A stretch of 64,000 nucleotides of DNA from Bolinopsis microptera (taxonomy: Eukaryota; Ctenophora; Tentaculata; Lobata; Bolinopsidae), in contig NC_087081.1 in the NCBI RefSeq assembly GCF_026151205.1, forward strand, positions 3,725,246 to 3,789,245, in the 5' to 3' direction. The position numbers and the translations under genes are program-made. The notes beneath the pieces were generated by a model, which saw nothing but the letters and a program-made list of their open reading frames with translations, had not been told where the DNA came from and searched no databases. Position 1 is the stretch's first letter; each line of letters opens with the position of its first letter. Below, piece after piece: positions 11,301 to 63,461 of this stretch.

Positions 11301-13748
11301 TAACCACGGTAACCCTGACCACGGTAACCGTAACCACGGTAACCGTAACCACGGTAACCGTAACCACGGTAACCGTAACCACGGTAACCGTAACCACGGT
11401 AACCGTGACCACGGTAACCGTGACCACGGTAACCGTGACCACGGTAACCCTGACCACGGTAACCGTAACCACGGTAACCGTAACCACGGTAACCGCGGTA
11501 ACCGTAACCACGGTAACCGCGGTAACCGTAACCACGGTAACCGTAACCACGGTAACCGTGACCACGGTAACCGTGACCACGGTAACCCTGACCACGGTAA
11601 CCGTAACCACGGTAACCGTAACCACGGTAACCGTAACCACGGTAACCGTAACCACGGTAACCGTAACCACGGTAACCGTGACCACGGTAACCGTGACCAC
11701 GGTAACCGTGACCACGGTAACCCTGACCACGGTAACCGTAACCACGGTAACCGTAACCACGGTAACCGTGACCACGGTAACCGTGACCACGGTAACCCTG
11801 ACCACGGTAACCCTGACCACGGTAACCGTGACCACGGTAACCGTGACCACGGTAACCCTGACCACGGTAACCCTGACCACGGTAACCGTAACCACGGTAA
11901 CCGTAACCACGGTAACCGTGACCACGGTAACCGTGACCACGGTAACCGTGACCACGGTAACCCTGACCACGGTAACCCTTACCACGGTAACCGTAACCAC
12001 GGTAACCGTAACCACGGTAACCGTAACCACGGTAACCGTAACCACGGTAACCGTAACCACGGTAACCGTAACCACGATAACCGTTACCACGGTAACCGTA
12101 ACCACGGTAACCGTAACCACGGTAACCGTAACCACGGTAACCGTAACCACGGTAACCGTAACCACGGTAACCGTAACCACGGTAACCGTAACCACGGTAA
12201 CCGTAACCACGGTAACCCTGACCACGGTAACCCTAACCACGGTAACCGTAACCACGGTAACCGTAACCACGGTAACCGTAACCACGGTAACCGTAACCAC
12301 GGTAACCGTAACCACGGTAACCGTAACCACGATAACCGTAACCACGGTAACCGTAACCACGGTAACCGTAACCACGGTAACCGTAACCACGGTAACCGTA
12401 ACCACGGTAACCGTAACCACGGTAACCGTAACCACGGTAACCGTAACCACGGTAACCGTAACCACGGTAACCCTAACCACGGTAACCGTAACCACGGTAA
12501 CCGTAACCACGGTAACCGTAACCACGGTAACCGTAACCACGGTAACCGTAACCACGGTAACCGTAACCACGGTAACCGTAACCACGGTAACCCTGACCAC
12601 GGTAACCCTAACCACGGTAACCGTAACCACGGTAACCGTAACCACGGTAACCGTAACCACGGTAACCGTAACCACGGTAACCGTAACCACGGTAACCGTA
12701 ACCACGGTAACCGTAACCACGGTAACCGTAACCACGGTAACCCTGACCACGGTAACCGTAACCACGGTAACCGTAACCACGGTAACCGTAACCACGGTAA
12801 CCGTAACCACGGTAACCGTAACCACGGTAACCGTAACCACGGTAACCGTAACCACGGTAACCCTAACCACGGTAACCGTAACCACGGTAACCGTAACCAC
12901 GGTAACCCTAACCACGGTAACCGTAACCACGGTAACCGTAACCACGGTAACCGTAACCACGGTAACCGTAACCACGGTAACCGTAACCACGGTAACCGTA
13001 ACCACGGTAACCGTAACCACGGTAACCGTAACCACGGTAACCGTAACCACGGTAACCGTAACCACGGTAACCGTAACCACGGTAACCGTAGATTTAAATG
13101 AAGATATTACACCTACTTGAGGACACTAGTGGAATTGTGTTACGTTTTCAAGAACATTTGACTTTCAGTACGTTTTGCTTGGTTAGGAAACACTAACCAT
13201 ATATTTGACAGGAGTGATGGCTAGAAGACTGAAGCAGACTCTAGTGAGGCCCATGGACAGGGACCGGTGTACGAACCAGATATTCGACTGGCCGGATCAC
13301 ATTCCTAACTACTTCAGCTTAGGACCTTCCCTTCTCTGTACTGAAATAGATGAAGATAATGTGAGTGCAAGTAATGCAGCCAAATAAACATTCCACACCT
13401 TAAATTAGTGTTTTCGTTTGTAAAAATATTAGTATAAAATATATAGATACTAAACTGGTTTCGACCGTTTCAGCATTACTTTAACCGTAAGTGTAATATT
13501 TTTTTACTAATAAACTACACAAACTTGACCAAAACTCAAAACCTCTGCAGGGATTTGGTGTTATATGTGACGGAGACAGTGGAGGACCAATGGTGGCCAG
13601 GAGAAAAACCGGATCTTATGCTCTACTTGGCGTCGCCTCATTCGGGACGGACAAGGACTGCAGTAAATCCGGAGAAGCTGCCGTCTACACGAGTGTTTAC
13701 TATTATCTTCCCTGGATCAGCCACTTTGTGGATCTCACTTTCATTTAG
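5380..13748 (+). CDS. Secreted ShKT-LDLa-S1 serine protease (multi-exon)
   Basis: Exons, all phase-matched: 5380-5469 (tentative), 6441-6584, 6886-7029, 9311-9516, 10339-10467, 10652-10742, 10925-11074, 13212-13360, 13551-13748 (TAG). Order of parts: a Cys-rich segment ([11 protein letters not shown]), a Thr/Asp linker, a ShKT domain (CEDD..C..W...C...CGLC), an LDLa repeat ([10 protein letters not shown] ... DNNDELNC), a pro-region Cys (RRCGVR), a dibasic activation site RRRQKR followed by LVNGK, then the S1 domain with His (AAHC), Asp (NDIALLKL) and Ser (GDSGGP). The triad is intact, so it should be an active extracellular endopeptidase. The pocket residue before CDGDSGGP is Val instead of the trypsin Asp, and Gly226 is replaced by Ala, so cleavage after Arg/Lys is unlikely. 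The start codon and signal peptide were not found. The intron after TGWGYDEK is a 2-kb satellite. Confidence 0.85.
6770..6880. repeat. Short repeats before the LDLa exon
   Basis: Irregular tandem copies of TATAAGGGTAA run up to the 3' splice site of the LDLa exon (TATTTTCAG at 6885). They are too degenerate to define a strict unit. Confidence 0.6.
8427..8498 (-). tRNA. tRNA-Val(CAC)
   Basis: On the minus strand it reads GGTTTCG...CGGAACC (acceptor stem). It has a TAGTGGTTATCA D-arm, an anticodon stem TCTGC/GCAGA with loop TTCACAC (anticodon CAC), and a GGTTCGAAC-type T-arm seen as GAGTTCGAACCTC. The length of 72 nt is standard and there is no intron. It lies antisense in the protease intron between the LDLa and activation-site exons. 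Confidence 0.93.
9024..9095 (-). tRNA. tRNA-Val(CAC), second copy
   Basis: Identical over the mature 72 nt to the copy at 8427-8498, while the flanks differ apart from a few bases. The two form a recent local duplicate or a copy held identical by selection or conversion. Same intron, same antisense orientation. Confidence 0.93.
9601..9672 (-). tRNA. tRNA-Val(AAC)
   Basis: The minus strand reads GGTTCGG...TCGAACC. Anticodon stem TCTGC/GCAGA encloses loop TTAACAC, giving anticodon AAC. The T-arm is CCGGGTTCAAAACCCGG. Compared with its two CAC neighbours the body is related but the T-arm and acceptor differ, so it is a separate isoacceptor. Confidence 0.93.
11075..13090. repeat. 15-bp satellite starting at a 5' splice site
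   Basis: About 134 tandem copies of GGTAACCGTAACCAC occupy almost the whole intron between the TGWGYDEK exon and the next protease exon. The first repeat base is the first intron base (AAAG, then GGTAACC). Each unit carries the 7-bp palindrome GGTAACC. Variants with GTGACC or CCTGACC cluster in the first 900 bp in recurring blocks; the distal half is nearly uniform. The unit is a multiple of three and lacks stops in several frames, which explains the long low-complexity reading frames on both strands. I do not regard these as proteins. Confidence 0.95.
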
Positions 13749-15225: not shown

Positions 15226-18200
15226 CTACGAAACAGTTTCGAGTTTGTCGACCTTTAAACTTTTTTCAAGTACGTAAGCGTCTGCAGGTTCGATCCTCTT
15301 GTAGTATTCTTGCTTAGTGTCTATAATCTTGAAGCCGAACTTGTTGTAAAACTGAAGAGCCTCGTCGTTGCTGATCTGCACATGCCTGAAAACATTCAGA
15401 TTAGAAATTCAGATGAAAACAAAATCGGACATTTCCGTTATAAATGACTTTTATTTCAATCCATCCATCAAAAATATTCTTTTTTAAAAATGTGTATTGA
15501 TTGGGCACCCTCTTAACTAATTGAGCAAAGTTGTCAGTCATAAACTCACAAGAAAATAGCATCGTATTGACCGTCATCTTTTGCTATCTTCATCACGTGA
15601 TCTAATAGCTTCTTGCCTGAAAATTTAATGAACTGAGATAGATATTAGTATAGTTATTCCATCTGTTTACATACACAAATATAAAAATACTGTCAATATT
15701 TAGTTGGTTGAAAACCATGCATAAATAATATAAGCCATTTTAATCATCCCCTAGTATCCTGATAAACCTGAGTCCTAATTTCAGTTTTAAATATAATTTC
15801 AGTTTTTGAAGAACATAATTTTTTTGAACATTTAAAATATAATTTGGAACATTACAGTAACGTTATTCAAATCTCAAACAGAAAAAAGTATATTTCAAAG
15901 CTTTGTGTTTTGATCATATGATCATGGGTGTATAGTGATTTTGATTGCATAAATTTGTTTAGGCAGTGATGGTGAGTGAGAAAATGATGGGAGTGCCAGC
16001 CAGTAACTCTGTCAAATGAACAGCCCACTGAGGAGTGGGTGAGCGCAAACCGAGAACGGCAGAGAGGGTGGCACAAAACGGAACACACGGCCACAGAAAA
16101 GACACAGAAACTAAACCGTGCGCAGTAAGTTAGCCAGTGTCTGAGAGCTAGTGTTGCTCGGCAGGAGGCATCCAAAAGAGGTGCCGTGGTGAACTGTGGA
16201 GGCAAAGTTCGAATGCAAGGCGAGGCAGCTCTAACTGATGATGAAGAGGTGGACTGAACGGAAAGTAAAGAGAAAGGAAAAGGAAGGATCCAGCTGAGGT
16301 CTGGCTCATGTCAGGAAGTGATGGAAAACTCACAGACAAAATCATCCGTGGCTGTCTACCCCGTACGTAGGCAGTGTCCGAGATTTCAGGCATCAGGATA
16401 CACTGAAACAGTGCAGAGCTGATTACGACCAGGGTCCTCACGGATACCCCACCTCGGAGGTCGAGCCAATGCCCTGCTTTCGATACTTATGTCTACTGGT
16501 GGAACCTTCATATTTTCTCTACTAGCGTCTAGCAGTCACTGTAACCCTATCACTCGGAAGGCCCCACAGCTCCTACATGGACGCTCGGCCGGGAGCCCAT
16601 GTAGGGATAACAGTGACCGCAAGCCCTCCATCACATCCATCACAGATTCAAAGCTGGGAGGAAAAGAGGAGGGAAAAAGGAAGAAAGAATACAAAAATAA
16701 AAAGCTGAGAAAGGAAACTAATTATCTGCTTTCAGACTGTCTTTGAAGTTGAGGGTCAGTCTGTAGATCTTGTTAATGGTGCTGGTTGAGAGTTTGATCA
16801 AACTTACGTCCTCATCACTGGGAGTATCCTTGAAGATGAAATTTCCAGATCTCACTGCAGAAAAATTAACAAAACGAAAATTCATATTTTCCAATTTCTG
16901 TCCCATTTTCAAATATGAAAATTTCTCAACATAAATTTGACAGATTGGACGGAATTTTTGCCCAGAGACCAATTAGTCAGTTAATTGATGATGGTATGAA
17001 TCCAAATTGAGGTACTGAAGTCAAAATCACAAAGAAAATTGAAAAGTCATATTCTCCCATTTTCTGTCCCATTTTCTGTTTTTGAAGATGAAATTTCCAG
17101 GACCGAAATTTTACAGTTTTGACTGAATTGTTCACCCGCAACCAATTAGTCAGTTAACTATAGATGGCATATATGACACAATTGAGGTGCTGGAAGTTTG
17201 ATTTCAGTCGGAGGAAGCTCACTGCAGAAAACTTAGCAAAACGAAAATTCATATTTTCCAATTTCGGTCCCATTTTCAAATATGAAAATTTTTCAACATA
17301 AATTTGATAGATTGGATGGAATTTTTGCCCAGAGATCAATTTTTCAGTTAACTGATGATGGTATGAAACCAAATTAAGGTACTGGAAGTCAAAATCCCGA
17401 AGAAAATTTTAAAATCCTGTAAACCTGTAAACCTGTTAACCTGTAAACCTGTTAACCTGTAAACTTGTTAACCTGTAAACCTGTTAACCTGTAAACCTGT
17501 AAACCTGTAAACCTGTAAACTTGTTAACCTGTTAACCTGCAAACCTGTTAACCTGTAAACCTGTAAACCTGTTAACCTGTAAACCTGTTAACCTGTAAAC
17601 CTGTAAACCTGTAAACCTGTAAACCTGTAAACTTGTTAACCTGTAAACCTGTTAACCTGTAAACCTGTAAACCTGTAAACCTGTTAACCTGTAAACTTGT
17701 AAACCTGTAAACCTGTTAACCTGTAAACCTGCAAACCTGTTAACCTGCAAACCTGTTAACCTGTAAACCTGTTAACCTGTAAACCTGTAAACCTGTTAAC
17801 CTGTAAACCTGTAAACTTGTTAACCTGTAAACCTCTAAAGTGTAAACCTGTAAACTTGTAAACCTGTAAACTTGTTAACCTGTAAACCTGTTAACCTGTA
17901 AACCTGTAAACCTGTAAACCTGCAAACCTGTTAACCTGTTAACCTGCAAACCTGTTAACCTGTAAACCTGTAAACCTGTTAACCTGTAAACCTGTTAACC
18001 TGCAAACCTGTTAACCTGCAAACCTGTTAACCTGCAAACCTGTAAACCTGTAAACCTGTTAACCTGTAAACCTCTAAAGTGTAAACCTGTAAACTTGTAA
18101 ACCTGTAAACCTGTTAACCTGTTAACCTGTAAACCTGTAAACCTGTTAACCTGTAAACCTGTAAAGTGTAAACCTGTAAACTTGTTAACCTGTTAACCTG

Positions 18201-19728
18201 TAAACCTGTAAACCTGTAAACCTGTAAACCTGCAAACCTGTTAACCTGTTAACCTGCAAACCTGTTAACCTGTAAACCTGTAAACCTGTTAACCTGTTAA
18301 CCTGTAAACCTGTAAACCTGTTAACCTGTAAACCTGTAAACTTGTTAACCTGTAAACCTCTAAAGTGTAAACCTGTAAACTTGTAAACCTGTAAACCTGT
18401 TAACCTGTTAACCTGTAAACCTGTTAACCTGTTAACCTGTAAACCTGTAAACCTGTTAACCTGTAAACCTGTAAACTTGTTAACCTGTTAACCTGTTATA
18501 TTAACTTACCAACTCCACATCTTCTGTAAGGACCCAAACAGCCAAGAGTCATGATGTATAACTTCCTCTGTCTCTCCTGCAAGTCTGTTCTGCAACACAC
18601 TGCTCCCACCACGATATCATTGAAAAATGCTGCATAATTTTTGTTTGTTAATACAAGTTGTTGTTAATGTAAATTGTTAATATAAGTTGTTAATATAAAT
18701 ATGAAGATATAAAGTTGCAGGAGTACAACTTGAAACGTATCTTATTGTTAAATTAGTGACATTTTCTACCCATGTGAGTTGTTTTAAAAGCCACACTAGC
18801 TAATAAGTTACTTGCTAAATATTTAACCGTATATAGAACGAATAAAAACCAGTTTCATTCTTTTTCAAGCGTTATCACTAATTAGTGATAACCTTTATCT
18901 CACATAGAACATTAAAGGTAAGTTCAAATCAGATCTAGATTTAACTTGAACTCAACTAACTGATTAATTAATTAATTAATTAATTAATTAACTAACCTAA
19001 TTTGGCAAGTTCCCCCACGTCCAGGACATCTTTGTAGAACTTGTCATTATACGTGACTGGAAACACTACCTGATTTAACACTTTCAACTGTCTGAAAAAC
19101 ATGATATTAAAAAACACTACCTATTCAACACTTCAACACTTCAACTATTTGAAAATTCACAAATTGTCGAATATCAACATCAACTATTAGAGCCTATTGG
19201 TTTTAACCTACTGTAGAATGATCCTAAAGTTACACCCTACAGTACTGCACATGCTCTTATATGGCTGCTGTGTGATGTTGCAAATAAGCACTGGCTGATA
19301 AAATGGTTTTACGAAAATAAATTGTAAACAAATAATTGAATTATATAATTTCGCAACACGGGTGAATTAATTAATTAATTAATTAATTAAATAATTCAGA
19401 CTTATAAATAGCACTTTTCATGAGTTTTGTTAGAACAACTCTCTTATTTAACCTTTACTATTGAACAACCTTTAAAATAATTATGTCTAATTTAAAACAA
19501 ACTGTAAAATAAATTGGACTTGCACACGTTGTGACTCTTCTAAAGTATTAGAGTTTTCAAAACAAATTAAAAAAAGGCCTTCATGTTATGGAGCCATGGT
19601 TTGGACTGGCTTTACCCATTTAAAACGTTTCATAATAGTCTCAATAGTGTTGTACTTAGTTTAAATATTTACTTGATGTTGTGAGGTGTGATGTCTCCAA
19701 GTTCTATTCTGGGCGTGGCAACTGGCAT
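15226..19728 (-). CDS. NAA50: N-alpha-acetyltransferase 50 (NatE catalytic subunit)
   Basis: Five phase-matched exons on the minus strand: 19673-19728 (ATG), 18997-19091, 18510-18629, 15550-15616, 15226-15385 (TAG), coding 165 aa against about 169 in human. It is a GNAT-fold enzyme that acetylates N-terminal Met-starting peptides, in the NatA/NatE complex at the ribosome. Visible signatures: RIELGDITPHNIK at the N-terminus, FPVTYNDKFYKDVL, the catalytic Tyr context KLYIMTLGCL, the acetyl-CoA loop RRCGVGKK, the catalytic His context FLHVQISND, and the C-terminal EYYKRIEPADAYVL. Intron 3 (2.9 kb) holds tandem repeats and an unidentified segment. The 5' splice sites of exons 2 and 3 are followed almost at once by TTAA and CAGGTTAA repeats. 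Confidence 0.95.
15990..16745. other. Unidentified segment in NAA50 intron 3
   Basis: This stretch is less AT-rich than the rest of the intron and contains a perfect hairpin CCTACATGG/CCATGTAGG near 16572-16606 with a GC-rich loop. Short open frames on both strands (up to 112 codons) show no recognisable domain. It may be the remnant of a transposon. Confidence 0.3.
16853..17400. repeat. Diverged tandem copies of a 150-230-bp unit
   Basis: Three related copies start near 16853, 17080 and 17219. They share TTCATATTTTCCAATTT, CAAATATGAAAATTT and CAGTTAACTGATGATGGTAT-like blocks. The middle copy is shorter. They abut the 8-bp satellite that follows. Confidence 0.6.
17415..18498. repeat. 8-bp satellite in NAA50 intron 3
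   Basis: About 135 tandem octamers, mainly CCTGTAAA and CCTGTTAA, with CCTGCAAA and CTTGTAAA variants and a recurring CTCTAAAGTGTAAA interruption near 17833, 18071 and 18359 that marks larger-scale duplication. On the gene's strand the unit reads CAGGTTTA/CAGGTTAA, which resembles a 5' splice site, and the array begins 13 nt downstream of the exon 3 5' splice site. Confidence 0.93.
18963..18992. repeat. TTAA tetranucleotide run at the NAA50 exon 2 donor
   Basis: A run of about seven TTAA units starts five bases inside intron 2, right after GTTAG on the gene's strand. Confidence 0.8.
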
Positions 19729-26533: not shown

Positions 26534-26544
26534 ATTGGACCGTC

Positions 26545-26590
26545 GACGAGTCCAACTCGGCGCGCGTCCTGGTAGGTTATAAACCTACAA
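26545..26590 (+). mobile_element. 3' part of the 80-bp element
   Basis: GAGTCCAACTCGGCGCGCGT and GGTAGGTTATAAACCTACAA match the 3' two thirds of the 80-bp unit. No flanking duplication was seen. Confidence 0.6.
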
Positions 26591-27778: not shown

Positions 27779-28210
27779 TGTTATAGCCATATAACTATAA
27801 GGAAAGTTTTAAGAAAGTCCATCATTCAGAAAGTTTTAAGAAATTCTATCATTTAGATCTCGAAATATATGCCTGCGTTCCGCTAGAATGCTCCAATTTG
27901 AGATATTTTCTTGTGTTTGAAGTCATATCTTTAGTTTGGCACATAGAAATTCGCCCAAACTCGCTCAGATTATCCGTCTTATAGCCATGTAACTATCTGG
28001 AAAGTTTAAAGAAATTCTATCATTCAGATCTCAAGATATATGCAGGTGCGTTCCGCTAGAACGCGCCAATTTGAGATATTTTCTTGTGTTTGAAGTCATA
28101 TCTTTAGTTTGGCACATAGAAATTCGCCCGAACTCGCTCAGATTATCCGTCTTATAGCCATGTAATCATCTGGAAAGTTTAAAGAAATTCTATCATTCAG
28201 ATCTCGAGAT
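27779..28210 (-). repeat. 172-bp satellite, right arm (inverted)
   Basis: Two and a half units in reverse complement to the left arm, with boundary motifs near 27854, 28027 and 28199. The right arm is slightly more uniform than the left. Confidence 0.85.
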
Positions 28211-28555
28211 AATCGACTTTCGTCAAATATCGTTCCACGGAACATACGGAACGGAAAGTCCAACTAGTAACCCTAGTATTTTCTACTCAGAATTGTAAGC
28301 GAATGTCGCCCCAGTTCAGATACAAATTGGTACAGAAGTTAGGTCCGTGTGCAAATGTTACAATTTCGCCAGAACACCTCGCACCTGAAGTCTGATGAGA
28401 TTTTGGCGCTGACAAACATTTTTCGGCAACCAAATACTGAACAGATAAACTTCCATAGTCCAATGCAAGCAATTTACCGACATGGATCCAATGTGAGTAA
28501 TTAGATTTCTGCAATACATTGTTACGGTTCGGATGAAAAATAGTGTTTGAACCTT

Positions 28556-28612
28556 ATTCGAACCCGGACCTTCAGCATGCGAGGCGATAGTGTTGCCACT
28601 TGGGTGACATTT
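28556..28612 (-). other. tRNA-like relic
   Basis: The minus strand contains TGAAGGTCCGGGTTCGAA preceded by CGCCTCGCATGC, which looks like the anticodon and T arms of a tRNA. The 5' half does not fold as a D-arm and the acceptor stem is absent. Confidence 0.3.
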
Positions 28613-29088
28613 GCTTACTATTCTGAGAAATAAACCGGGGCAACATTCTTACAATTTTGCTTACAATTTCGCTAGAACAACTCCTCAAGTTACGAATTAT
28701 TACCATCGACAATTGAAAATCCATGTTAAACGACAAATAACATGAAAATTAATAGCAAATTACACAGCAAATTTACAACACAGGTCAACAAACCATGTGA
28801 GTCCTGTATTGAATACCATCTATTAAAAATAAGATCGTCTTTATTAGGAACAAATTATTACATTTCCTCACTTCTACAGACCAATAATAGTTCTGTCCTC
28901 ATCAAATTCATAGCTGATAAAGGAAATTAACAATGTACTATAAAGACAAATTGAAATTCTGGGAGCATTACCGAGGAGCTAAGATGCCGTATTACCATCA
29001 ATATAGCTCCAACACTAACACAAAAGTTCATTGAGTTTTGGATGAGAAGATTAGAAGGCAGCTTTAAAAGAAAGAAGGTGTTGTAGGA

Positions 29089-32000
29089 TCACTTTACAGC
29101 TGAATGTTTTCTGAGGAATCTCATCAAATGATCTGATAACTCGTCGCTTTTGAATTCCTGGATAAATTTCTAGACAGATTTATAAATGTGCATTGTATAC
29201 AGATTTCCTGATTAATTACCCCAGCAGTAATTCGCAAGTTTTTTGCCAACTAAAACCTAATAAAAGTTAGAGTTAATCGATGTGCTTGAAATTAATTTGA
29301 AATACCTGATACAAGTGACAACACCATATAGTGACATGTCATTATAAAGTGCTTGTCATTATATAGTGTTGTCACTAATTTAATTAATTTGAAATACCTG
29401 ATACAAGTGACCCCCGCCCTTAATAGGGATATCTTCACCGTTTGGGAACAGTGATTTGAACAGATCTTTGCTTGCACCACTCCCACTGAAAATACAAACG
29501 CATTATTATCTATACTAATAATCTCAAGATGTGTGTTTGTCTGTTCGTTTGCGTGTAATTTCCGAACGGCTTAATCAAGAAACGGTAAGAGTTACGGGCT
29601 AGTTTTTTCGGTATAGTGCCGACAAAACTCTGACCAAGCCAAAAGATTGAGGTTTTTTAAATCGGCTGGTGGTGAGTGGTTTAATTGATCATTTTGTGAC
29701 CCACATGTGATACTAAATAGTCTCACGTACTCTCCCTCTCTCCCTCTCTCCCTCTCTCCCCCCATAACAGATTTGCGATATAATTATGTAATTTAGCAGT
29801 GGAGTTGGACCTCAAGATTGGCTATCAAGTATTACTATGAGATATATGAGGGGTACTCAGAATTTAATTGCGGTGTGTTTGGATAGAGCGAGTTCATACT
29901 TTCGGACCGGTTTTATACTAGTACGAAAATGTAATGTGTGTTTTCGAATATAAAAGGCGGGTTTATACTTTTGAATTTCAACTGCGATAGTGAAGTCCCG
30001 GCCGTAGGCACGGGTTACACTAGTATTATTATCAGTTGATAATTAAAATCACCATTCCAACACTGTGAAAATGATGTGCTAAAACTGCAATATTCACTTC
30101 ATAATCTGCTGGCACTGTCAAAATGTATTCTGCCAAAGATTTCATCCTGATTCTCAATTTCCCTACGCATACGAGTCACCTTAACCGTGACCGCTACAGT
30201 AATGCATTACAAATAACACTGAAAACAATCACAATTGAAAGAACCATATTATATTGAACGAAACCAGAATATCCATAACCTTATACCATGGTCGTATTAC
30301 TGCACCAACACTGACAATTAGCTAGTGTAATGTATAGTTTTACATTTATATACGCAATTCTGCTCCAATAAGGCATAATTACTATTCGTGTGTATTAACC
30401 TACTTAGCTCTATTCCCATTCACTTAACTGTATAGTATATATGCATGCATAACGTAAACTTGGCAAGTGAAATGCTATGCTTTGCCAACAATTTGTGCCT
30501 TGTATATCTGAATCCAGCTGCTAAGATTAACGGTTTGTTGAAATGAGGGGGTAAGAATTAAGATAAAGCAGATATTTAAAATTAACATTTGTTAACTTTA
30601 CAGTAATAAAATGTGACTCAATTTGGGGTACATGGATAATAATTGTTGGCATTTGCCACCTATTCAACCTGAATGATAATTCCGAACCAACGAAATAGTT
30701 TCAGGTTACGGGGACAGTTACCCAACTGATCTTTAATTAGGCTACACTTACAGTTGTACGTGAGTTTTAGTACAAGGTTGCAGATCAAGTTGTACGTGAG
30801 TTTTAGTACTAGGTTGGAACAGTTAATATTTCAGTGTGGGTTAAAATGAAAGCATCTTATTGCTAAACATTTCTAAGAGATAAATCTTATTGTGAGAGAA
30901 ATAATTTATATTTAACTGTAAATAATAATAAACGTATAAACTATGAATATTATAAACTTTTAAGAAGGCTATTTTAGGAAATAGTCCGAGTTATTGCAGG
31001 TCAGCAATTTTTATGATCTTACAAATTTACGGTGATAAAAGCGACTCCACGACACAAAAATGCGTGGTATGCAAGACATAGGGAGGATGGGTAATGAATG
31101 GGAAATTGTTCATAATGAAGTGTGATGACTGGTGTAATGGACATTTAGGTTATACGGTTAGAATTATGTGATTTAGTACGTGGTTATACGGTTAGAGGTG
31201 ATTTAGTACGTGGGTCTTAGTTACATTCAATTTTAAAAACTGATATTTCAGTATTTTAGCATTAATAATATTTCAGTATTTTAGCATTAATAATATATAA
31301 TGACCAGACACTCATACTTTAAAGACGAATCAATTCGTCTACAGAAAATCCAATATTTCTGACAGCATCAAAAACAATGTACACTGTACATCGTGTAGTG
31401 TATCGTAAGATGTACAATGTACATGTAACGATACACCAGCACAGTGCATACCACACGGAATGGGAACGGTATGTGTTCTGCATCACGTTATCACGTACGT
31501 GGTTTTGGTATCATCTAACACAGCTACAGGTTAATGTTATTAGGGAGATATGAGCAGTGACACTAATTACACTAATTACACTAATTACAGTGGTTTTATG
31601 AGATATTATAATTTGTGTGAATAAGAAGTTCTTATCGTTTCCAGTATTGGAATGTGTTTAAGTGTTTATCTTGTTATCTTCTCCATTTGTGACATAGGAT
31701 CGACAGGTCACATCATACTACAACATATCTGAATTATGTTCAAATCATGTCAACAAATTATGCCAAAAAGTGGTCTTGAATTTTCCATATTCTCAGTAAA
31801 AGATGTTCATTGTTGAATGTCAAGTGTCACGCTTTAATTTCCAGACTAATCTATAGGTGTCAGTAAAACAATCACTATTTGCGCTTGCATTTTAGCTACA
31901 GGAGATTATCCAAAAGTTTGGACATACTAATTCTGATTTCGGAGTTTCGAAGGTTGCCATGACCACTAAAGCGACTTCAGTTGATCAGTCACTTCATGAA

Positions 32001-33353
32001 CTTAAATTGGCACCAGGCAATATATTGGATATTTGTGGTTTACTTTGATAAGCTCTGGTATAAGTTTAATATCAGAGTCTGGTATAACCTCTGGTATAAG
32101 TTTAATATCAGAGTCTGGTATAACCTCTGGTATAAGTTAATATCAGAGTCTGGTATAACCTCTGGTATAAGTTTAATATCAGAGTCTGGTATAACATCTG
32201 GTATAAGTTTAATATCAGAGTCTGGTATAACCTCTGGTATAAGTTTAATATCAGAGTCTGGTATAACCTCTGGTATAAACTCTGGTATAACCTCTGGTAT
32301 AACCTCTGGTATAACCTCTGGTATAAGTTTAATATCAGAGTCTGGTATAACCTCTGGTATAAGTTAATATCAGAGTCTGGTATAACCTCTGGTATAAGTT
32401 TAATATCAGAGTCTGGTATAACATCTGGTATAAGTTTAATATCAGAGTCTGGTATAACCTCTGGTATAAGTTTAATATCAGAGTCTGGTATAACCTCTGG
32501 TATAAACTCTGGTATAACCTCTGGTATAACCTCTGGTATAAGTTTAATATCAGAGTCTGGTATAACCTCTGGTATAAGTTAATATCAGAGTCTGGTATAA
32601 CCTCTGGTATAAGTTTAATATCAGAGTCTGGTATAACCTCTGGTATAAGTTTAATATCAGAGTCTGGTATAACCTCTGGTATAAGTTTAATATCAGAGTC
32701 TGGTATAACCTCTGGTATAAACTCTGGTATAACCTCTGGTATAACCTCTGGTATAACCTCTGGTATAAGTTTAATATCAGAGTCTGGTATAACCTCTGGT
32801 ATAAGTTAATATCAGAGTCTGGTATAACATCTGGTATAAGTTTAATATCAGAGTCTGGTATAACCTCTGGTATAAGTTTAATATCAGAGTCTGGTATAAC
32901 ATCTGGTATAACCTCTGGTAAAACCTCTGGTATAACCTCTGGTATAACCTCTGGTATAACCTCTGGTATAACCTCTCCAGCCCCCAGCTCTGTAGTGGCT
33001 CTCAACACAACATTAATAACGCGTTACTTCTCCAGGATAACGCGTTACTTTAATACCATCTGGCAATATGAGGGGCAGTGTATAATATGAAAGCAGCTGT
33101 ACCGTGATCACGTGATATCGCTCCTGCACTCTGAGTCGCTCCAGGGCAGCTGCAGCGTATTTAGCTATAGAATCACGGATACACTACATGGACAGTGCGT
33201 TCTATATAATGACAAGTTACCGTTCATAGTTACAATGGCCACGACAATATTTCAATAATTTAACCGTTCATAAAGTTACGATTTCCTATAATATAGCGAA
33301 GTGATAACGATATACGTTCTAGATAACCTTCCAAACTAACCTGATAACTTTCC

Positions 33354-33384
<31 letters not shown>

Positions 33385-33385
33385 A

Positions 33386-33460
<75 letters not shown>

Positions 33461-33885
33461 GTAACTAACTAAGTAACTCACTAAGTAACTAATTAAGTAA
33501 CTAATTAAGTAACTAACTAACTAACTAACTAAGTAACTAACTAAGTAACTAACTAAGTAACTAACTAAGTAACTAACTAACTAACTAACTAACTAAGTAA
33601 CTAACTAAGTAACTAACTAAGTAACTAACTAACTAAGTACCTAACTAAGTAACTAACTAACTAACCTGATACCGTCGTCACTAAACAGCAGGAGAACAGG
33701 TTTATCCCATTTTCTGAGGAAACGTTTCGTGCTCCGCATGTCCTCTATAATACGTTTACATCCCCAAGGTAACATGGGTACTAGCTGGGGCCACCGTGCT
33801 ACGCCTGCTTTGTATCTGTAAATAAGACAACTTAATAGAAACTTTCTTGTTTTGTTTTATTACAGATGAGCAAAAAGTGATTATC

Positions 33886-33962
<77 letters not shown>

Positions 33963-33967
33963 TACAT

Positions 33968-34000
<33 letters not shown>

Positions 34001-37000
34001 AAACGGACAGAAAATGAAACAGACAACACGCACAAACCTGTAGTTAGGGAAGGGAGCAGTGTAACCCCGCCTAGTTTTACTATCAATACTAGCGTACCCC
34101 AGTAGGTACCCCAGAGGTAGGTGGGTCTGACAGACGAATATAACAGCGGACCAGGTAAGAAAGTGGAACATGTTGACTAGGTGCTTTAGTCCTGTGTCTT
34201 CTCTGCAGGGCAGCACCTGAATATCACGTGTTAGGAAGTGGAACAAGTTGACTAGGTGTTTTAGTCATGTGTCTTCTCTGCAGGGCAGCACCTGAATATC
34301 ACGTGTTAGGAAGTGGAACATGTTGACTAGGTGTTTTAGTCCTGTGTCTTCTCTGCAGGGCAGCACCTGAATATCACGTGTTAGGAAGTGGAACAAGTTG
34401 ACTAGGTGTTTTAGTCATGTGTCTTCTCTGCAGGGCAGCACCTGAATATCACGTGTTAGGAAGTGGAACAAGTTGACTAGGTGTTTTAGTCATGTGTCTT
34501 CTCTGCAGGGCAGCACCTGAATATCACGTGTTAGGAAGTGGAACATGTTGACCAGGTGCTTTAGTCCTGTGTCTTCTCTGCAAGGCAGCACCTGAATATC
34601 ACGTGTTAGGAAGTGGAACAAGTTGACTAGGTGTTTTAGTCATGTGTCTTCTCTGCAGGGCAGCACCTGAATATCACGTGTTAGGAAGTGGAACATGTTG
34701 ACCAGGTGCTTTAGTCCTGTGTCTTCTCTGCAGGGCAGCACCTGAATATCACGTGATCAGCTGCTCTTATGTTAGGGTAGCTTTCACAGTTCACTTTTCA
34801 TTTGAAAATGTTAAACTGCTAGATTTGTTAGTGATTCCGGTATAAAACTGTCAACTTTAAAGACGTAGTCTCGTGACTGTGATGAGCCAATCAGCAATAA
34901 ATTCACAGGCACGTGTCATCTCCCACCCACATTAACACAATATCCTGGCCCCAAACAAGCTAATGTTTTTTATTGTGGCGGCTCCATTGTTAGTATGGAG
35001 ATCATATCTTATGTCATCACATCAAGTCATCTTATAGATGTTGTTGGGAGGTCAGACATATTGTTTGACATGTGACAGCAATTTACCAATGAAAGCCTAG
35101 AATCACTGTCACGTGTTTTATTCCCATCGGAATCCACATCTATTGTAATCCATAATTTTAAGGGTTATTTTTTGAAAGAAATTTGTTAATATAATGATCT
35201 AAAATTTATCGTCACTCAAAAATAGCAATTACGGGTATATGGCCCCCAGAATATAGGTGGCCCCCAAAATATAGGTCATGTTAGTGGATACAGTTCTAAC
35301 CAAGATAAGCGATACTAATGGGATCTGTTACTGCTAGGTTGGAGTAAAACATGTAACTTATGTTTCTGGATAAAAATTTTGGACCTACATGAGGTATTTT
35401 GGTATATTTGGTCATGACAGCGAAAGATTTAAACGATGTTGTCATTTTCTAGAGGGGTAAATATGGCGAAAAATTGTCATGACAAAAATCTGTCCAACAC
35501 ATGCCATTAAGACTACTGGTATGAGTATAAGTATTATTTTAAGCTATCTTTTCATCGAGACATCTGCAAACTGACAATTTGGAAAAAAGTTATGGCCACC
35601 ACAATTTTACGGGCCCCCAGAATATAGGTCTATACGACCCCCAGAATATAGGTTGGTCAAAAACCCTGAACATGCCCAAAACCATGCTTTGGGATGCTCT
35701 ACTTGTAGCTACTAGTCTCCTGAACCCACGTATCAAGTTTTATCAAAATTGGATAAAAATTGGCCGAGTTATGGGATAAAAACAAAAACCATATGCCCAT
35801 ATTTGGGCATACGCACCAAATTTGATCGATTTTGGTCCATAAATTGGTCAAATATCAATATTTTTGAATGAAACCAACTTTATATGGAAGGTAAGCATAT
35901 ATTACACATTCTCTATGATTATCAGCTCAATATCTACCTAACTGTGGATTCTGTGTTCAAATAATCGCAAAAAATGAACAAAATCGCCCATATCTCAAAC
36001 TGACTTCGCTCAAAACAATAGAACTCAATAGGGTTTCAATATTTTCACATGAAATTTTCAGAATCAACGTAGAATTGTCTCATGACCTTAAGTTTTGGGA
36101 CAGAATTTTGAGTTAGGCCTTTAAAAAAATTTGGCGGCCAAAAATGTCTGATTTACAGTCATTGAGGTGCACATTGTATTGATACAGATAAAAACAGCCC
36201 CCCTCAATCATATCTAGGGACACTCCTTCAATCTTATTTAAGTATTTAGTTAAGATCCCTACTAAATGAGTGCATGAAAGCTTTTTAACAAGTAAAATTA
36301 AAGATTTTACTCATTACGGGTATATGGCCCCCAGAATATAGGTTTTAAAAAAAAAATAGCGACCAAGATTCTGCATTTTCTCTGTCACCCTGAGCATTAA
36401 GGAATGTGGGGTAGTGATAAGAAACAGTTAAAGAACATATGCTGAAGAGATGGTATCATCAAAATGTATGAAGGTGGAGTATTTGAGGACGATTTTTGCA
36501 TACCTATATTCTGGGGGCCGTAGTTTTTGATTTTTTGCTATTAAGTATACTCTAAACCATTTCAATTTAGTATCTGGAGCCATTGGCATCATCAATACAG
36601 TCTCAGCAACATATTCTGACTGCATATAACTGTCTGTGACAATTTTAGAACAACTTAGGAACAGATGTTTGGACCTATATTCTGGGGGCCCTGTTAAAAA
36701 ATGGTATTTTTACAGGTGAAAAAAAAGTACACTTAAAAACCTAATAATTATTTTAAACTACCCAAGAAACATTTAAAGGGTTATTATGTACATATTTACA
36801 CCCCTAAACATGCTTAGAAGTAGTTTTAACACCTGTTTCTAAGTGCTCAAAAAACGACCTATATTCTGGGGGCCATATACCCGTATAGATCAATTATAGT
36901 TTAAATATAGATTAATATAGATTAAATCGATATGAATTATTCCACAAACCGTGTTTAAGATACAAAGGCTGTCGATTAGGTTAGGAATATCCTTCACAAC

Positions 37001-40000
37001 AGATAAACCAACCGGGCCACCCCAATCGTGTACTACTAGCGTTATCTTACTTAACCTGGGGTGTTATCTTAGTTAACAAAAGGTTTCGTTATTTAAAAGT
37101 TAGATCTGCTAATCAAAATAATCAGGATCAGACTTACCAATAACGATAATTAATAATTAATAATTATAGTTTATTGTAAGTCAATTATGGTACAAGACTG
37201 GGTGATAACACTTGAATGTCCTGCACAGCAGATTGAAGCTTTTTAAATCTTTAAATTATTTTTTATTCTTATTGTATTGCTGTGTAAATTTGATTTTAAT
37301 CCTAATTAACAGGGGGTGGATTATCATTACCCCTCATTAACATTATCAGTATTAATATTCAGTATTAATTGTAGAATCTATCATGACTAAAGTAAAATAA
37401 GTAATTTTACTATTGTTCACGTATAACCCTAACTCAAAGATTAGACTATTTATATTGTTTTCATAATCAGTGCAGTATCAAGATGCTCATAAATACAAGA
37501 AAAATGGCGTGATAATTTTGCTTAAACATTCAGATTTACATTGTCAAGCTATGCAGTAATGCAGTAGTAGTTTCATAACATATTTGAATTATATTCTGAA
37601 TAATCTATAACAACGTATTTTTCAGCTCACTAAGAAACTATGGCGACAAGTTTTAAACCGACTCAAGGGGGGTTTAGTCACCCAGCATAGCTATTAGCTA
37701 CACCTAATTCTATTTATCTCTCTCATTTTGTGAATCAATCAATACCAAAACGATGTATTTGTGTTGATGATGGACAGTCATTGAGTGGAAACATTACCAA
37801 TTATACAGTAAAACTCCGATTTACCGCGCCCCGATTTACCACAAACTCTGATTTACCACGGACATTTCCTTCCCCAAACTCCACGGTAAATCGGGGTTTT
37901 ACAGTAATACAATGTTGGAACCGATTTACACGGTCCTTATGACCGTACGCCGCTGAATAAAATAGCAATGAATGACAACCATTTTTCCTTGCTGTGTAAA
38001 TAATATCTCTACTATAATTCAAAAGATTCTTTCTGATGTACGACCGCCCACGTGCAAATCAGACGAGAAATAGGAATTTAGGTAACAACCAAAAGGTTCC
38101 ATAGCAACGGTGTTTTAATGCACACATGCACGTGCAAAGATTGTTTTAACGTCATTTTGATCGGTTTTGTGGTAATTACGTTGTGTTTAAAGTGTTTTAT
38201 ATTTAAATCGGCTGTATCTTCGGTTGAGATGGATATTTTTTGATGCGATTAAAACTTTCTTTCAAAGAATACTACTAGCTTCGTCCCTGTTACCACGGGC
38301 TTTCTAGTTATCTTATAAACCAGTCTAGTGGTCCATATTTAGTTATCCATGATACAGTATACACTAAGCAATATAGCCTCATCAAGATATAACGCATTTA
38401 CATTTAACATAGGTAATAATGAACAAGGCCGATAGTTATTATTCTCATGTGACAATAACATCGTTATATTATCCTTGTTGGACAGCAACATCTAATGAGT
38501 ACGTGAGTACATCAGCACTCAACGGGCAATGACCCGAGTTATATCAGTAAATATAACCCAGTTTACATTTAATAAACTTAAACCACTCCTTATAAGGGTA
38601 TCACGTGATTACTGATTGATAATAAAATGATAAGAATGTTAAAACTTTAATTATTTCTTACTTTAAATGTTCAATGAAGAGTCTGAGAGTGAGAGTGTGG
38701 AGATCGTGTGTGTACATGTCTAACGAGGAGTACTTGTCACTTTTACCAAAACCTGGGGTACAAACAGGGTAAAGAGGGGTAGAAAGAGGGTAAAGAGGGG
38801 TAGAAACAGGGTAAAGAGGGGTAGAAACAGGGTAGAAAGAGGGTAAAGAGGGGTAGAAACAGGGTAAATAAGGGTAGAAACAGGGTAAATAAGGGTAGAC
38901 AGAGGGAGGAGTTCTTGTCACTTTTACCAAAACCTGGGGTACAAACAGGGTAAAGAGGGGTAGAAAGAGGGAGGAGTACTTGTCACTTTTACCAAAACCT
39001 GGGGTACAAAGAGGGTAAAGAGGGGTAGAAAGAGGGAGGAGTACTTTTCACTTTTACCAAAACCTGGGGTAGAAACAGGGTAAAGAGGGGTAGAAAGAGG
39101 GTAAAGAGGGGTAGAAAGAGGGTAAAGAGGGGTACTTGTCACTTTTACCAAAACCTGGGGTAGAAACAGGGTAAAGAAGGGTAGAAAGAGGGTAAAGAGG
39201 GGTACTTGTCACTTTTACCAAAACCTGGGGTAGAAACAGGGTAAAGAGGGGTAGAAAGAAGGTAAAGAGGGGTAGAAAGAGGAGGAGTACTTGTCACTTT
39301 TACCAAAACCTGGGGTACAAACAGGGTAAAGAGGGGTAGAAAGAGGGTAAAGAGGGGTACTTGTCACTTTTACCAAAACCTGGGGTAGAAACAGGGTAAA
39401 GAGGGGTAGAAAGAGGGCAAAGAGGGGTAGAAAGAGGGAGGAGTACTTGTCACTTTTACCAAAACCTGGGGTAGAAACAGGGTAAAGAGGGGTAGAAACA
39501 GGGTAAAGAGGGGTAGAAAGAGGGTAAATAAGGGTAGAAAGAGGAGGAGTACTTGTCACTTTTACCAAAACCTGGGGTAGAAACAGGGTAAAGAGGGGTA
39601 GAAACAGGGTAAAGAGGGGTAGAAAGAGGGTAAATAAGGGTAGAAAGAGGGAGGAGTACTTGTCACTTTTACCAAAACCTGGGGTAGAAACAGGGTAAAG
39701 AGGGGTAGAAACAGGGTAAAGAGGGGTAGAAAGAGGGTAAATAAGGGTAGAAAGAGGAGGAGTACTTGTCACTTTTACCAAAACCTGGGATACAAACAGG
39801 GTAAAGAGGGGTACTTGTCACTTTTACCAAAACCTGGGGTAGAAACAGGGTAACGAGGGGTAGGAAGAGGGAGGAGTACTTGTCACTTTTACCAAAACCT
39901 GGGGTACAAACAGGGTAAAGAGGGGTACTTGTCACAGGGGAAGTTGTTAGTTAAACTTGAATTTAAGATTAAAATTTGATAAAGAAACAATTATATTATT

Positions 40001-43000
40001 GTTACAAATACAAATCTAAATATGGGCAATTCCACGATAACGGTAACCAGTAACAAAATAATAAAGTTTGGAGGTGGTTTGGGAGAGATAGAAAATCTTT
40101 AAGATATTTGACCATATTTTCAGGGGCAAAAAACCGTTTGTTGATATCTAGCCTAGTTTAAAAACTGTAGCGCGTCAAAGTTGGCTTAAATTTAGTGTAT
40201 CTTTAGTGTGAATATCCAGTTATTTTCCGAAAGATTTTAGGGAGCTTTATTAATCGTAGAATTCAATATTTTATCCTGTATATCAACCTAGTGGGCTTCA
40301 GATAGAAGGCCAGCCTAATTTTGAGGGCCAAATTTCTTTACTTTTTGAGTGTCTTATGATCAAATTTTTCCTCTTCGCGTGTGAATAACGCTACCAAATA
40401 GTGAAAAATGTTTTACTGTGGCTACACTATAAGTCTGTTTGATTCGTAACTGTCTCTCTAACGGCAACTTTAGTCATCTATAAAGGTCAGAAAATTTCAT
40501 TCGTTTTGTCACACTGGAAGTGCAAAAAGTAGGGGTAGTGTGATTCACAGGTAGCGTAATTCACAGCTTGGTAGTGTAATTTACACAGCGGAAAATTAAT
40601 AAAACAAGTAGTTTAAATGCTTTGTTGTGAAATAAATTGTACTTTCAATACTTCCAGGGCAATTCCAGGGACCTATTTTCAACAACTGCCTGAAAGTGTT
40701 GGTAATTTAATCGAAATTAGGGTTCCGCCAGGGCAAAATGTGCCACTTTTAGACCTTAAATCGCAAAAATAATGATTTTTAAATGGATTAGGACATCAAA
40801 ATTGATTTGAAAGTGTTTTATAGTCATTTTTAGGTCTGGGAACACTTATTTGAGTAATTTAAAGGCTTATTTTCAGAAAATATCAGCAATTTGGGGCTAA
40901 AATTACCTTATTTTCTTGTCACGTAACTAAATTTTGCTCAAAAGAGCAGTGTTTTTGCCCCCAAAATTATAATTTTATCAAAAACCATGTATAGAGGTAT
41001 CAAATTAAAGCTGTTGATGACCTCTTCACATTAAAAACACAAAGAAGTAGTTTAGAATTGATATAAGTGATAAAATGGTCTAAAAATGGATTCAAAAAGT
41101 TATAAATTTCGCCCAATTTCTGTCTAATCATGAACCTTTGAGAGCTCATAAAAAAATCATGCCACAATATTACACTGTACATTTTTCTAGGATTACTCTA
41201 AATGTCCTATACTTACAGATAGATCAACTTATAGATGCTTACCAAAGTTAATTTGCAACTTATTTTTGTAGTTTGTCCTAAAAAATGGCAAAAAATTGCC
41301 AAAAAATGCAATTTTTGACAAAAAATGAGGTAAAATTAATATTTGAGGTCAAATATCCATTTAATCACTCTAAAAACCTTTTTAAACGTTATTTTGGGGC
41401 AAGATACCCCTAGAATACATGTTTTGTGGTATATCATACCCCTTAGTCATGCCTATATCTTATGTCTACCTCGCATGGGCGCCCCGACCACTGTGGTATG
41501 GCAGTAGGGTGTAATCTACACCATTACCAGTATCTAATTGGACCGATTAGTAGTCAATTTAATTTAAAATCAGTAATAGTCAGTCTACTTCACCATTTTA
41601 CAATAGCAGCAACCAAATCAAGAACAAGCAAACATCAATACAACGCACAAACAGAGCAACTGGGCAGAGTGTGAGTTACACTACGTTCAAATGTGAATAA
41701 CGTTTACTTCCTATATTGTCCCTGTACTACACACATTCCACAAATTTATGTTAGGAAGGACATAGGAAGTTGAAAAAATGTGTACTTTATTGTGATCAAG
41801 CCTTATTGTAACTTCTGCTATTACACTGGGGCACGAATTGCAATTTTAAGGCAAGATTTCTAAAACACCAAATTATGCCTGTGAATAACGTCTACTTTTT
41901 AAAATGCTGTTCACATAAAAAGTATAAGAGATAGACATTAAACTTTTGTTGCCACATCATCACAAACGTTTAAACTTCATTTTGACTTTATATTATCATG
42001 CTGCTAATGTTAGCCTACAATTAGCATGCAATTAAAAGCTAAATTTTGTGCAAAGTGTGAATTACACTACGTGGAATTGCCCATATAATACTTTTATATC
42101 GGTGTCAAGAGATGCCAAATGGTGCGCATTATAATGAGTGTAACCATAGTAACTATACTAAAAGGAGTTCGGTCTATGGAAGGCTATTGTTCTCAAACTC
42201 TTGGCATTTCAAGAATTTTGTTAAAATTGTATAGAAACATTGTTCCTTAATTCCAGAGAATATCAATTGAGTTTCTCAAACAAATGGCCGGTAAAACTGC
42301 AGACCTGTTACATTTTAAAGCCAGCAAGTTCTGTTAAGGAATTACTCAAGCCGGGACCCCATAGTTTCAAATTCAATCTACTAAAATCCACACACAGGTT
42401 TACACTAACCTATAAAATCAAGCGCTATAACTCTGTATCCCTTGGAAGCTAATGATTTTATCATGAACCTGTAGAGAAAACTCCACGTAGGTTCTCCGTG
42501 TATCAGTAGGATTACTCTGTCACTGTTTGGAGGGCCCTGAAATTTGTCAGATATTACAGGAATTTGCTACAAAAGTTCTGTCACTACGTGCGATTCAATT
42601 GATGAAAGATATCACTGGGCTCATTTCCAAGATAACAAGTTTCAGTTTTAAAAGATCTCACCTCATCTACATAGTGTACTCTGGGTAGATGGAGATTACC
42701 TCCACACAGTTCTATGAAGTTAGGTTCAAATGTATAACCAAGGGCACTGAGGCCAGCAAATGATTCTTCTGGCGTCCTAAATTGTAAATAGTTAATAAAT
42801 TGATATTAAAGCAGAAGCAGATAATGCTATATGTGCACAAGATATCTGCAAAACCAATTTATTCTTTAATAAAATGTACAGATAGCAAATAGGTTCATAA
42901 GATTATTATACCTCAATACAGGTGTAAATGTAAAATGTAAAGTGTACCTCAATACAGGTGTTAATGTAAAATGTAAAGTAGTTAAGTGTACCTCAATACA

Positions 43001-43746
43001 GGTGTTAATGTAAAATGTAAAGTAGTTAAGTGTACCTCAATACAGGTGCTAATGTAAAATGTAAAGTAGTTAAGTGTACCTCAATACAGGTGTTAATGTA
43101 AAATGTAAAGTAGTTAAGTGTACCTCAATACAGGTGTTAATGTAAAATGTAAAGTAGTTAAGTGTACCTCAATACAGATTTTAATGTAAAATGTAAAGTA
43201 GTTAAGTGTACCTCAATACAGGTGTTAATATAAAATGTAAAGTAACTTTAAGTGTACCTCAATACAGGTGTTAATGTAAAATGTAAAGTAGTTAAGTGTA
43301 CCTCAATACAGGTGTTAATGTAAAATGTAAAGTAATTAAGTGTACCTCAATACAGGTGTTAATGTAAAATGTAAAGTAGTTAAGTGTACCTCAATACAGG
43401 TGTTAATGTAAAATGTAAAGTAGTTAAGTGTACCTCAATACAGGTGTTAATGTAAAATGTAAAGTAGTTAAGTGTACCTCAATACAGGTGCTAATGTAAA
43501 ATGTAAAGTAGTTAAGTGTACCTCAATACAGGTGTTAATGTAAAATGTAAAGTAGTTAAGTGTACCTCAATACAGGTGCTAATGTAAAATGTAAAGTAGT
43601 TAAGTGTACCTCAATACAGGAGGATAATTCTTTGGTTTGAGTGCTCTGAAAAGAAAGGAGGCAGCGTGACGTATGATGGCTAACGAGAGAACTAATGGGA
43701 ACATTAGTATCAGCACTGGTATAATGTATCTCTTCTTATTCAACAT
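29089..43746 (-). CDS. Haloalkane dehalogenase-like alpha/beta hydrolase, membrane-anchored
   Basis: Nine phase-matched exons on the minus strand: 43610-43746 (ATG), 42662-42776, 42410-42536, 38662-38752, 36950-37055, 34038-34216, 33666-33815, 29398-29485, 29089-29157 (TGA), coding 353 aa. Order: an N-terminal signal anchor (about residues 8-24, [17 protein letters not shown]), RTPEESF, oxyanion motif [11 protein letters not shown] (97-107), FGKSDK, nucleophile elbow VVHDWGG (Asp167, halide-binding Trp168), NTVLPC, cap region with APFPNYRYKAG, strand [12 protein letters not shown] carrying the probable acid (Asp298/299), and base His328 in GGGHLYQ. These are diagnostic of the family that hydrolyses carbon-halogen bonds. 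The animal substrate is unknown, and the anchor suggests a secretory-pathway membrane location. Six of its 16 splice junctions are duplicated or fused to tandem arrays. Confidence 0.93.
29291..29319 (-). repeat. Second copy of the exon 8 5' splice junction
   Basis: GTCACTTGTATCAG followed by GTATTTCAAATTAAT repeats the end of dehalogenase exon 8 and the start of intron 8. The authentic junction lies at 29398, 92 bp away. A palindromic segment (CATATAGTG ... TATATAGTG) separates the two copies. Confidence 0.85.
29509..30023 (+). mobile_element. Non-autonomous Helitron
   Basis: The 5' end is TCTATACTAATAATC and the 3' end is a CCCG...CGGG hairpin followed by TTACACTAG. It is inserted between A (29508) and T (30024) without target duplication, the Helitron rule. 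There is no Rep/helicase ORF. A pyrimidine run (TCTCCC)n lies inside at 29733-29762. It sits in dehalogenase intron 7. Confidence 0.75.
30030..32035. other. Dehalogenase intron 7, no further gene
   Basis: Only small duplications are present: GTTGTACGTGAGTTTTAGTA twice near 30750-30810, TTATACGGTTAGA twice near 31153 and 31183, and a hairpin GTGTATCGT/ACGATACAC at 31397-31428. No exon-like reading frame was found. Confidence 0.5.
32050..32975. repeat. 12/36-bp compound minisatellite
   Basis: Twelve-bp units GTATAACCTCTG alternate with a 24-bp GTATAAGTTTAATATCAGAG-type extension. Larger blocks of about 200-250 bp repeat three times. It lies in dehalogenase intron 7. Reading frames through it on both strands are low-complexity and not genes. 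Confidence 0.93.
33351..33665. repeat. CTAA array on the exon 7 5' splice site
   Basis: About 75 CTAA/CTAAGTAA units. On the gene's strand it starts at intron position 1 (GGTATCAG, then GTTAGTTAG). At the far end AACTAACCTGATAAC (33336-33350) copies the junction AACTAACCTGATACC. Confidence 0.93.
33885..33998. repeat. GACA tetranucleotide array
   Basis: About 28 GACA units with two ATACAT interruptions, inside the short (222-bp) dehalogenase intron 6, 40 nt from its 5' splice site. It makes up half of that intron. Confidence 0.95.
34141..34755 (-). repeat. 75-bp array of exon 6 head plus 3' splice site
   Basis: Eight copies spaced exactly 75 bp (marker CAGCACCTGAATATCAC at 34211, 34286, 34361, 34436, 34511, 34586, 34661, 34736). 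The first is the authentic start of dehalogenase exon 6. Each copy carries about 55 nt of exon head and the ATATTCAG acceptor. Units alternate between forms with and without a stop in the exon frame. Confidence 0.95.
35230..36885. mobile_element. TA-flanked element with repeated terminal motif
   Basis: Ends CGGGTATATGGCCCCCAG and its inverse are bounded by TA. Internal copies of the terminal motif lie near 35258, 35609, 35636 and 36315 (direct, the last including the full end) and 36502 and 36670 (inverted). No ORF is present. It lies in dehalogenase intron 5. Confidence 0.8.
37056..37080 (-). repeat. Second copy of the exon 5 head before its 3' splice site
   Basis: GTTAACTAAGATAAC lies 22 nt upstream of the exon 5 start GTTAAGTAAGATAAC, differing by one base, with ACCCCAG between. 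Confidence 0.7.
37806..37904. mobile_element. 99-bp MITE (pogo/Tigger-like ends)
   Basis: Ends CAGTAAAACTCCGATTTACC and CTGTAAAACCCCGATTTACC (inverted) are bounded by TA. Length and ends suit a Tc1/mariner-superfamily MITE. It lies in dehalogenase intron 4. Confidence 0.75.
38006..38307 (+). mobile_element. Non-autonomous Helitron
   Basis: It starts TCTCTACTATAATTCAAAAG and ends with CCCTG...ACGGG and CTTTCTAG, inserted between A and T. The subterminal TATTTTTTGATGCG also occurs in the candidate at 57797-58416. Confidence 0.65.
38752..39940 (-). repeat. Array of exon 4 head plus 3' splice site
   Basis: About 13 complete and one truncated extra copies of the junction TTTCTACCCCAG followed by GTTTTGGTAAAAGTGACAAG lie upstream of the true exon 4 start at 38752. 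They are spaced by variable numbers of TACCCTCTTTC-type pyrimidine units. Most copies carry 21-29 nt of exon. Markers (TTTTACCAAAACC) lie near 38915, 38979, 39044, 39135, 39203, 39290, 39359, 39445, 39550, 39660, 39769, 39816 and 39878. Confidence 0.95.
40023..42083. mobile_element. 2-kb TA-flanked element
   Basis: Ends TGGGCAATTCCACG and its inverse are bounded by TA. Internal repeats of GTGTGAATTACACTACG/GTGTGAGTTACACTACG lie near the right end. No ORF above ~70 codons. It fills most of dehalogenase intron 3. Confidence 0.8.
42911..43620 (-). repeat. 44-bp array of exon 1 tail plus 5' splice site
   Basis: Seventeen copies of CCTGTATTGAG followed by GTACAC, the last being the authentic exon 1 boundary at 43610. 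The spacing is 44 bp in nearly all cases (36 and 46 once each). Each copy carries 11 nt of exon and about 33 nt of intron. Confidence 0.95.

Positions 43747-49773: not shown

Positions 49774-63461
<13,688 letters not shown>

Follow-up and report, generated by a model that had tools for sequence, protein, structure and literature searches.

Tandem repeat arrays across splice junctions of a haloalkane-dehalogenase-like gene in the ctenophore Bolinopsis microptera

The stretch of DNA examined here, referred to as the window, comprises 64,000 nucleotides of the B. microptera assembly GCF_026151205.1 (contig NC_087081.1, positions 3,725,246 to 3,789,245 of the forward strand), and coordinates are those of the window unless a block is named. 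Its central feature is a gene of the minus strand, termed haloalkane-dehalogenase-like from its protein matches, in which tandem repeat units hold exon and intron bases together. These junction arrays match the mirages of lancelets, a known type found here in a new phylum.

Results

The dehalogenase-like gene consists of nine exons and eight introns, with GT-AG signals at all 16 junctions and a single open frame throughout (Table 1). Six orthologous proteins from other species (P0001–P0006, 72–89% identical) were found by eye to be colinear across each junction, without inserts. They also bear out the gene end at 29089, where it had been placed by an initial annotation made from the letters alone. 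The protein query used for the ortholog search had a wrong tail, from a superseded model of exon 9.

Table 1. Features of the window
Feature	Position	Strand	Description	Basis
Haloalkane-dehalogenase-like gene	29089..43746	minus		Open frame, GT-AG introns, ortholog colinearity by eye
Dehalogenase exons 1-5	43746-43610, 42776-42662, 42536-42410, 38752-38662, 37055-36950	minus		
Dehalogenase exons 6-9	34216-34038, 33815-33666, 29485-29398, 29157-29089	minus		
Exon 1 donor array	42926..43620	minus	44-bp unit, 11 exon bases and donor, 17 junction copies	TRF, 24-mers
Exon 4 acceptor composite array	38725..39927	minus	14 copies, acceptor and 28 exon bases	TRF, 24-mers
Exon 6 acceptor array	34161..34755	minus	8 copies of a 75-bp unit that is mostly exon	TRF, 24-mers
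Exon 8 donor duplication	29290..29411	minus	Donor 29411-29382, single copy 29319-29290	
Exon 5 acceptor (weak)	37039..37077	minus	Exon head 37055-37039, diverged intron copy 37077-37061	
Exon 7 donor (GTTA)n array	33322..33665	minus	Begins at intron base 1; weak as junction copy	
Kinase exon tail, donor and array	54928..55536	plus	(TGTCAC/TGTTAC)n array from 54963	
Protease array	11075..13090	plus	134 x 15-bp, begins at intron base 1	TRF
NAA50 array	17416..18496	minus	8-bp x 136, 13 bp from donor	TRF

Junction copies were counted with 24-mers of 12 exon and 12 intron bases, a copy being a match of at least 19/24 within 3 kb, with the real junction included. Tandem copies were present at 4 of the 16 junctions, namely the exon 1 donor (17 copies), the exon 4 acceptor (14), the exon 6 acceptor (8) and the exon 8 donor (2). 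The copy numbers given in the initial annotation (17, about 14, 8 and 2) equal these counts. Two donors and two acceptors are duplicated at 21/24 or better. A graded series of border-spanning units at both types of site had been claimed, and is borne out by the 24-mers and by the arrays of Tandem Repeats Finder (TRF), which extend 11 bp into exon 1, 28 bp into exon 4 and 56 bp into exon 6. The three large arrays each reach one intron end only, and fall 149, 2482 and 2194 bp short of the other.

The copy at the exon 8 donor matches at 24/24, with an offset of 92 and 30 bp in common. Between the two donor copies (about 29310-29380) lies a spacer with an imperfect inverted repeat (AGTGACAACAC / GTGTTGTCACT), which may be a small hairpin element linked to the duplication.

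The initial annotation had counted 6 of 16 junctions; four stand by their 24-mer copies, and the exon 5 acceptor and exon 7 donor are weaker, the best other match to either junction 24-mer within 3 kb being at most 17/24. Upstream of exon 5, 15 of 17 bases of the exon head are repeated at a distance of 22 bp by our own count, and the repetition concerns the exon head only. The far end of the exon 7 array carries a short copy, TATCAG/GTTAGTT (slash at the junction), which has only TATCAG and array sequence in common with the donor.

Coverage of junctions by copies was discarded as a statistic. A copy at 21/24 lies near 558 of 2066 sampled positions of the gene (27%), so that junction coverage alone is not unusual. 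What is unusual in this gene is that the repeat units cross the junctions. A dispersed repeat of about 500 bp also lies at about 29505-30000; most of the 46 genome matches listed (40 of 1521 candidates scored) span this stretch, with about 79–89% identity.

Sequence, orientation and location of the copies

The alignment of copies takes ungapped copies only, that is, 14 of the 17 in the exon 1 array. The donor is kept in all 14 of these full units, and its bases −3 to +6 are unchanged (0 of 126 sites differ). The AG is likewise unchanged in 14 exon 4 copies and 8 exon 6 copies. These intact splice signals say nothing on selection because the remainder of each unit hardly varies more, with differences at 5 of 378 intron sites of the exon 1 array. 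Where array copies differ, they do so by scattered substitutions. An in-frame TGA is present in 4 of the 7 copies that precede the real exon 6 acceptor, which makes them unlikely to be coding.

Three junction strings were matched against the genome (264.65 Mb, at most 2 mismatches). All matches, 14/14, 8/8 and 14/14, were at the gene itself and in one orientation, and no dispersed copies of these strings were found at other genes; the match counts are lower bounds. No exon-exon copy was found on the minus strand of the window with the eight exon-exon 24-mers, the best match being 20/24. Exon joined to intron, a single orientation and matches confined to the gene itself therefore point to tandem duplication of DNA. 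Across 103 intronic arrays, splice-like motifs showed no preference for the sense strand, which was ahead in 51 of 99 arrays for the donor motif and in 47 of 101 for the acceptor motif, ties being omitted.

Junction duplication in a blind sample

Rates of duplication were obtained from a blind sample, made of one 200-kb block whose position was set beforehand (C1:3,000,001-3,200,000) and four chaperonin loci taken from a profile search. Gene models came from a self-trained gene finder, and the resulting set of 244 introns draws 182 from the block, 34 from the chaperonin loci and 28 from the window. Over 553 positions, the predicted chaperonin gamma protein differed from a database protein by 5 mismatches and 2 gap positions (98.7% agreement); the dynein chain as predicted also agreed with the annotated protein. 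Some genes were merged or split by the gene finder, and some dehalogenase exons were mis-set inside arrays; because of these errors, the models of four window genes were set by hand. Two predicted genes of the block that look spurious, g21 and g22, were excluded from the junction, position-rate and strand-motif counts.

With a threshold of 21/24 or better within 2 kb, strict junction duplication was observed at 5 of 426 blind junctions (donors 2/213, acceptors 3/213). The statement of the initial annotation that random intronic minisatellites would not begin on the first base of an intron or include exon heads was thus too strong. Duplication has no peak at the junctions (about 1%): the rate climbs from 0.1–1% in the 60 bp of exon next to the junction to 3.3–3.5% in the intron 18–30 bp from it and 17% at 156–300 bp. 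Introns of at least 400 bp likewise show no junction peak, with 1.7–2.6% on the exon side, 2.9% at the junction (3 of 104 sides, bootstrap 0–6.7%) and 18.8% in the interior. At one mirage of the block, at a dynein intermediate chain acceptor, the B. microptera protein is joined at the exon-proximal copy according to its annotation.

Several loci of the sample stood out. Seven array edges lie on a junction, cross one or come within 5 bp of it in a gene (block about 18,700–37,900) that we take by eye to encode an RNA polymerase III large-subunit-like protein and that the gene finder had split; the seven include two strict junction duplications and one edge at a doubtful gene end. At 95,929–99,379 of the block, the end of an array of 75 units of 46 bp crosses a predicted acceptor (CCCTCAG/GTGACTGT), and the array fills an intron of 3.5 kb in a predicted Ig-like gene with about 75 acceptor copies. 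At positions 3077–4976 of the chaperonin gamma locus, an array of 61 pyrimidine-rich units of 30 bp stops 19 bp before an acceptor and looks like a copied region of branch point and pyrimidine tract.

Array edges and junctions

The initial annotation had proposed measuring the distance from array edges to splice sites. This was done for the 75 TRF arrays in introns of the block, and an edge within 20 bp of a junction, or across it, was found for 23 of them, compared with 8.9 expected if arrays are placed uniformly inside introns (P = 9e-7). Among arrays of at least 100 bp the proportion was 13/23 (3.8 expected on the uniform null, P = 2e-7). A second null, hereafter the overhang null, lets one unit overlap the exon by at most 60 bp. 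The enrichment anticipated is present, but much of the excess is lost under the overhang null, which gives 14.2 expected. For edges within 3 bp, 9 were observed against 1.7 (uniform) or 8.5 (overhang null, P = 0.48), nor is position-wise duplication highest at junctions. These headline figures include g21 and g22; without them, 22 of 64 arrays have such an edge, against 8.8 or 14.0 expected. Array edges are concentrated at exon borders, approximately as expected for arrays that fill the intron and sometimes overlap the exon, and some excess remains.

Other genes of the window

The names of three further genes, presumably a kinase, a protease and NAA50, come from inspection by eye or from the initial annotation. 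The related placement of arrays claimed for them is found, at 3, 0 and 13 bp from the donors, respectively. The far end of the kinase array (55522-55536) is an exact 15-bp copy of exon sequence 54928-54942. In the window genes other than the dehalogenase-like gene, 0 of 40 junctions are duplicated at 21/24 and 2 of 40 at 20/24. Three tRNA-Val genes are predicted on the minus strand (8425-8498, 9021-9096 and 9599-9672), inside introns of the predicted plus-strand protease gene. A 996-amino-acid open frame at 21363-24353 resembles, by eye, a retrotransposon reverse transcriptase.

Discussion

The junction arrays are most probably mirages produced by near-neutral tandem duplication across splice junctions, tolerated since the copies land in the intron. 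They look mostly like a by-product of intronic repeat growth and not a splicing device. The proposed sequence of events starts from the long introns of B. microptera, which prove rich in tandem arrays, and in which the duplicated segment is seen to cross a splice junction occasionally. In the dehalogenase-like gene, the exon-adjacent junction would stay intact, so that the added copies would fall in the intron and be removed with it. The array would then extend into the intron, its opposite edge being fixed by selection on the exon. The intact splice signals of the copies would reflect the youth and homogenisation of the arrays and not any demonstrable use.

A number of results weigh against this explanation. 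The excess of edges persists under the overhang null, both for all arrays (P = 0.004) and for those of at least 100 bp (13 against 6.05 expected, P = 2e-4). The dehalogenase-like gene is an outlier, with 4 of its 16 junctions duplicated, compared with 5 of 426 in the blind sample (Fisher P = 1.3e-4), and, for long introns, 3 of 10 compared with 3 of 104 (P = 0.009). It is still one at P = 0.005 when the rate is scaled, by our own procedure, to the array density of the gene; all these values flatter the gene because it was chosen for its pattern. Exon interiors carry copies too, at 451 of 12,390 sampled positions (3.6%), so that a purge from exons is valid for exon flanks only; we propose that the interior copies are coding repeats. 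Finally, splicing of the dehalogenase arrays was judged from DNA and from proteins of other species.

Such an outlier, the residual enrichment of edges and the seven edges within 5 bp of junctions in the RNA polymerase III large-subunit-like gene would all suit a process that actively drives duplication at the splice junctions of some transcribed genes, for instance through R-loops or splicing-coupled breaks, so that junction arrays accumulate there. The blind profile without junction peak and the splice motifs without sense-strand bias speak against it, and both genes were noticed post hoc. Active promotion is therefore considered unlikely. The idea that promotion coupled to splicing or transcription in this ctenophore lets genes such as these two gather many junction arrays at once is considered just as doubtful.

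It is quite improbable that selection maintains the copies as regulatory splice sites or as decoys, the latter having been proposed initially. The unchanged donors of the 14 exon 1 copies and the unchanged AG of the exon 4 and exon 6 copies would fit, but they are uninformative next to the near uniformity of the remaining unit; stops interrupt the majority of the upstream exon 6 copies, and the absence of sense-strand motif bias in the other arrays lends selection no support. An assembly artefact is highly improbable: the evidence comes from one assembly, and one search gave no second haplotype contig of the region, but substitutions are scattered among the copies, unit lengths vary between junctions and similar cases occur on another chromosome. 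Recombination with cDNA, whether fully or partly spliced, was also proposed initially but is scarcely credible, as no supporting point was found and the copies are tandem, local and hold exon joined to intron, without an exon-exon match in the window better than the 20/24 reported above.

Comparison with known systems

Near-neutral duplication across junctions can be set beside other processes that multiply splice signals. Introner-like elements are repeated intronic sequences carrying splice signals, which the dehalogenase arrays resemble in this respect. Unlike them, the junction copies are not dispersed, and an introner-like or transposed element was ruled against since all 14, 8 and 14 matches (lower bounds, at most 2 mismatches) are at the gene itself.

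For intron gain by tandem duplication (the AGGT model), duplications that copy splice signals are described for ATP2A1 and potato RdRp (PMC4974935). The dehalogenase duplications copy splice signals in the same way. In the AGGT model, the unit must yield both splice sites of one intron; it was rejected here, as the large arrays touch one intron end only and create no new intron. Mirages also provide starting material for intron gain by duplication.

Amphioxus mirages are tandem repeats that run across exon-intron borders, of donor as well as acceptor type, and carry copies of the splice signals (PMC3087553, PMC3902484). The genes concerned there are Adh3, the globins BflGb6 and BflGb9, troponin C and PGBD5; units are 10–72 bp in Adh3 and 150–160 bp in the globins; splicing tolerates the mirages, and their length is unstable. 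The tandem units of the dehalogenase-like gene similarly combine bases from both sides of one splice site, exon and intron, at donors and acceptors, with intact AG and GT signals. They differ by their ctenophore host, by the 4 to 6 borders affected in a single gene and by copy numbers of up to 17. The amphioxus cases are backed by RNA and population evidence, whereas the dehalogenase arrays are described from one genome assembly. No report of such arrays in ctenophores was recognised in literature searches, part of which named ctenophores. At each mirage locus, near-identical splice sites compete at different distances from one exon. The blind-sample count, 5 of 426 junctions, is a first rough mirage frequency for one species. 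That mirages reach this frequency in a comb jelly suggests that introns rich in repeats generally give rise to duplications across junctions as a side-effect.

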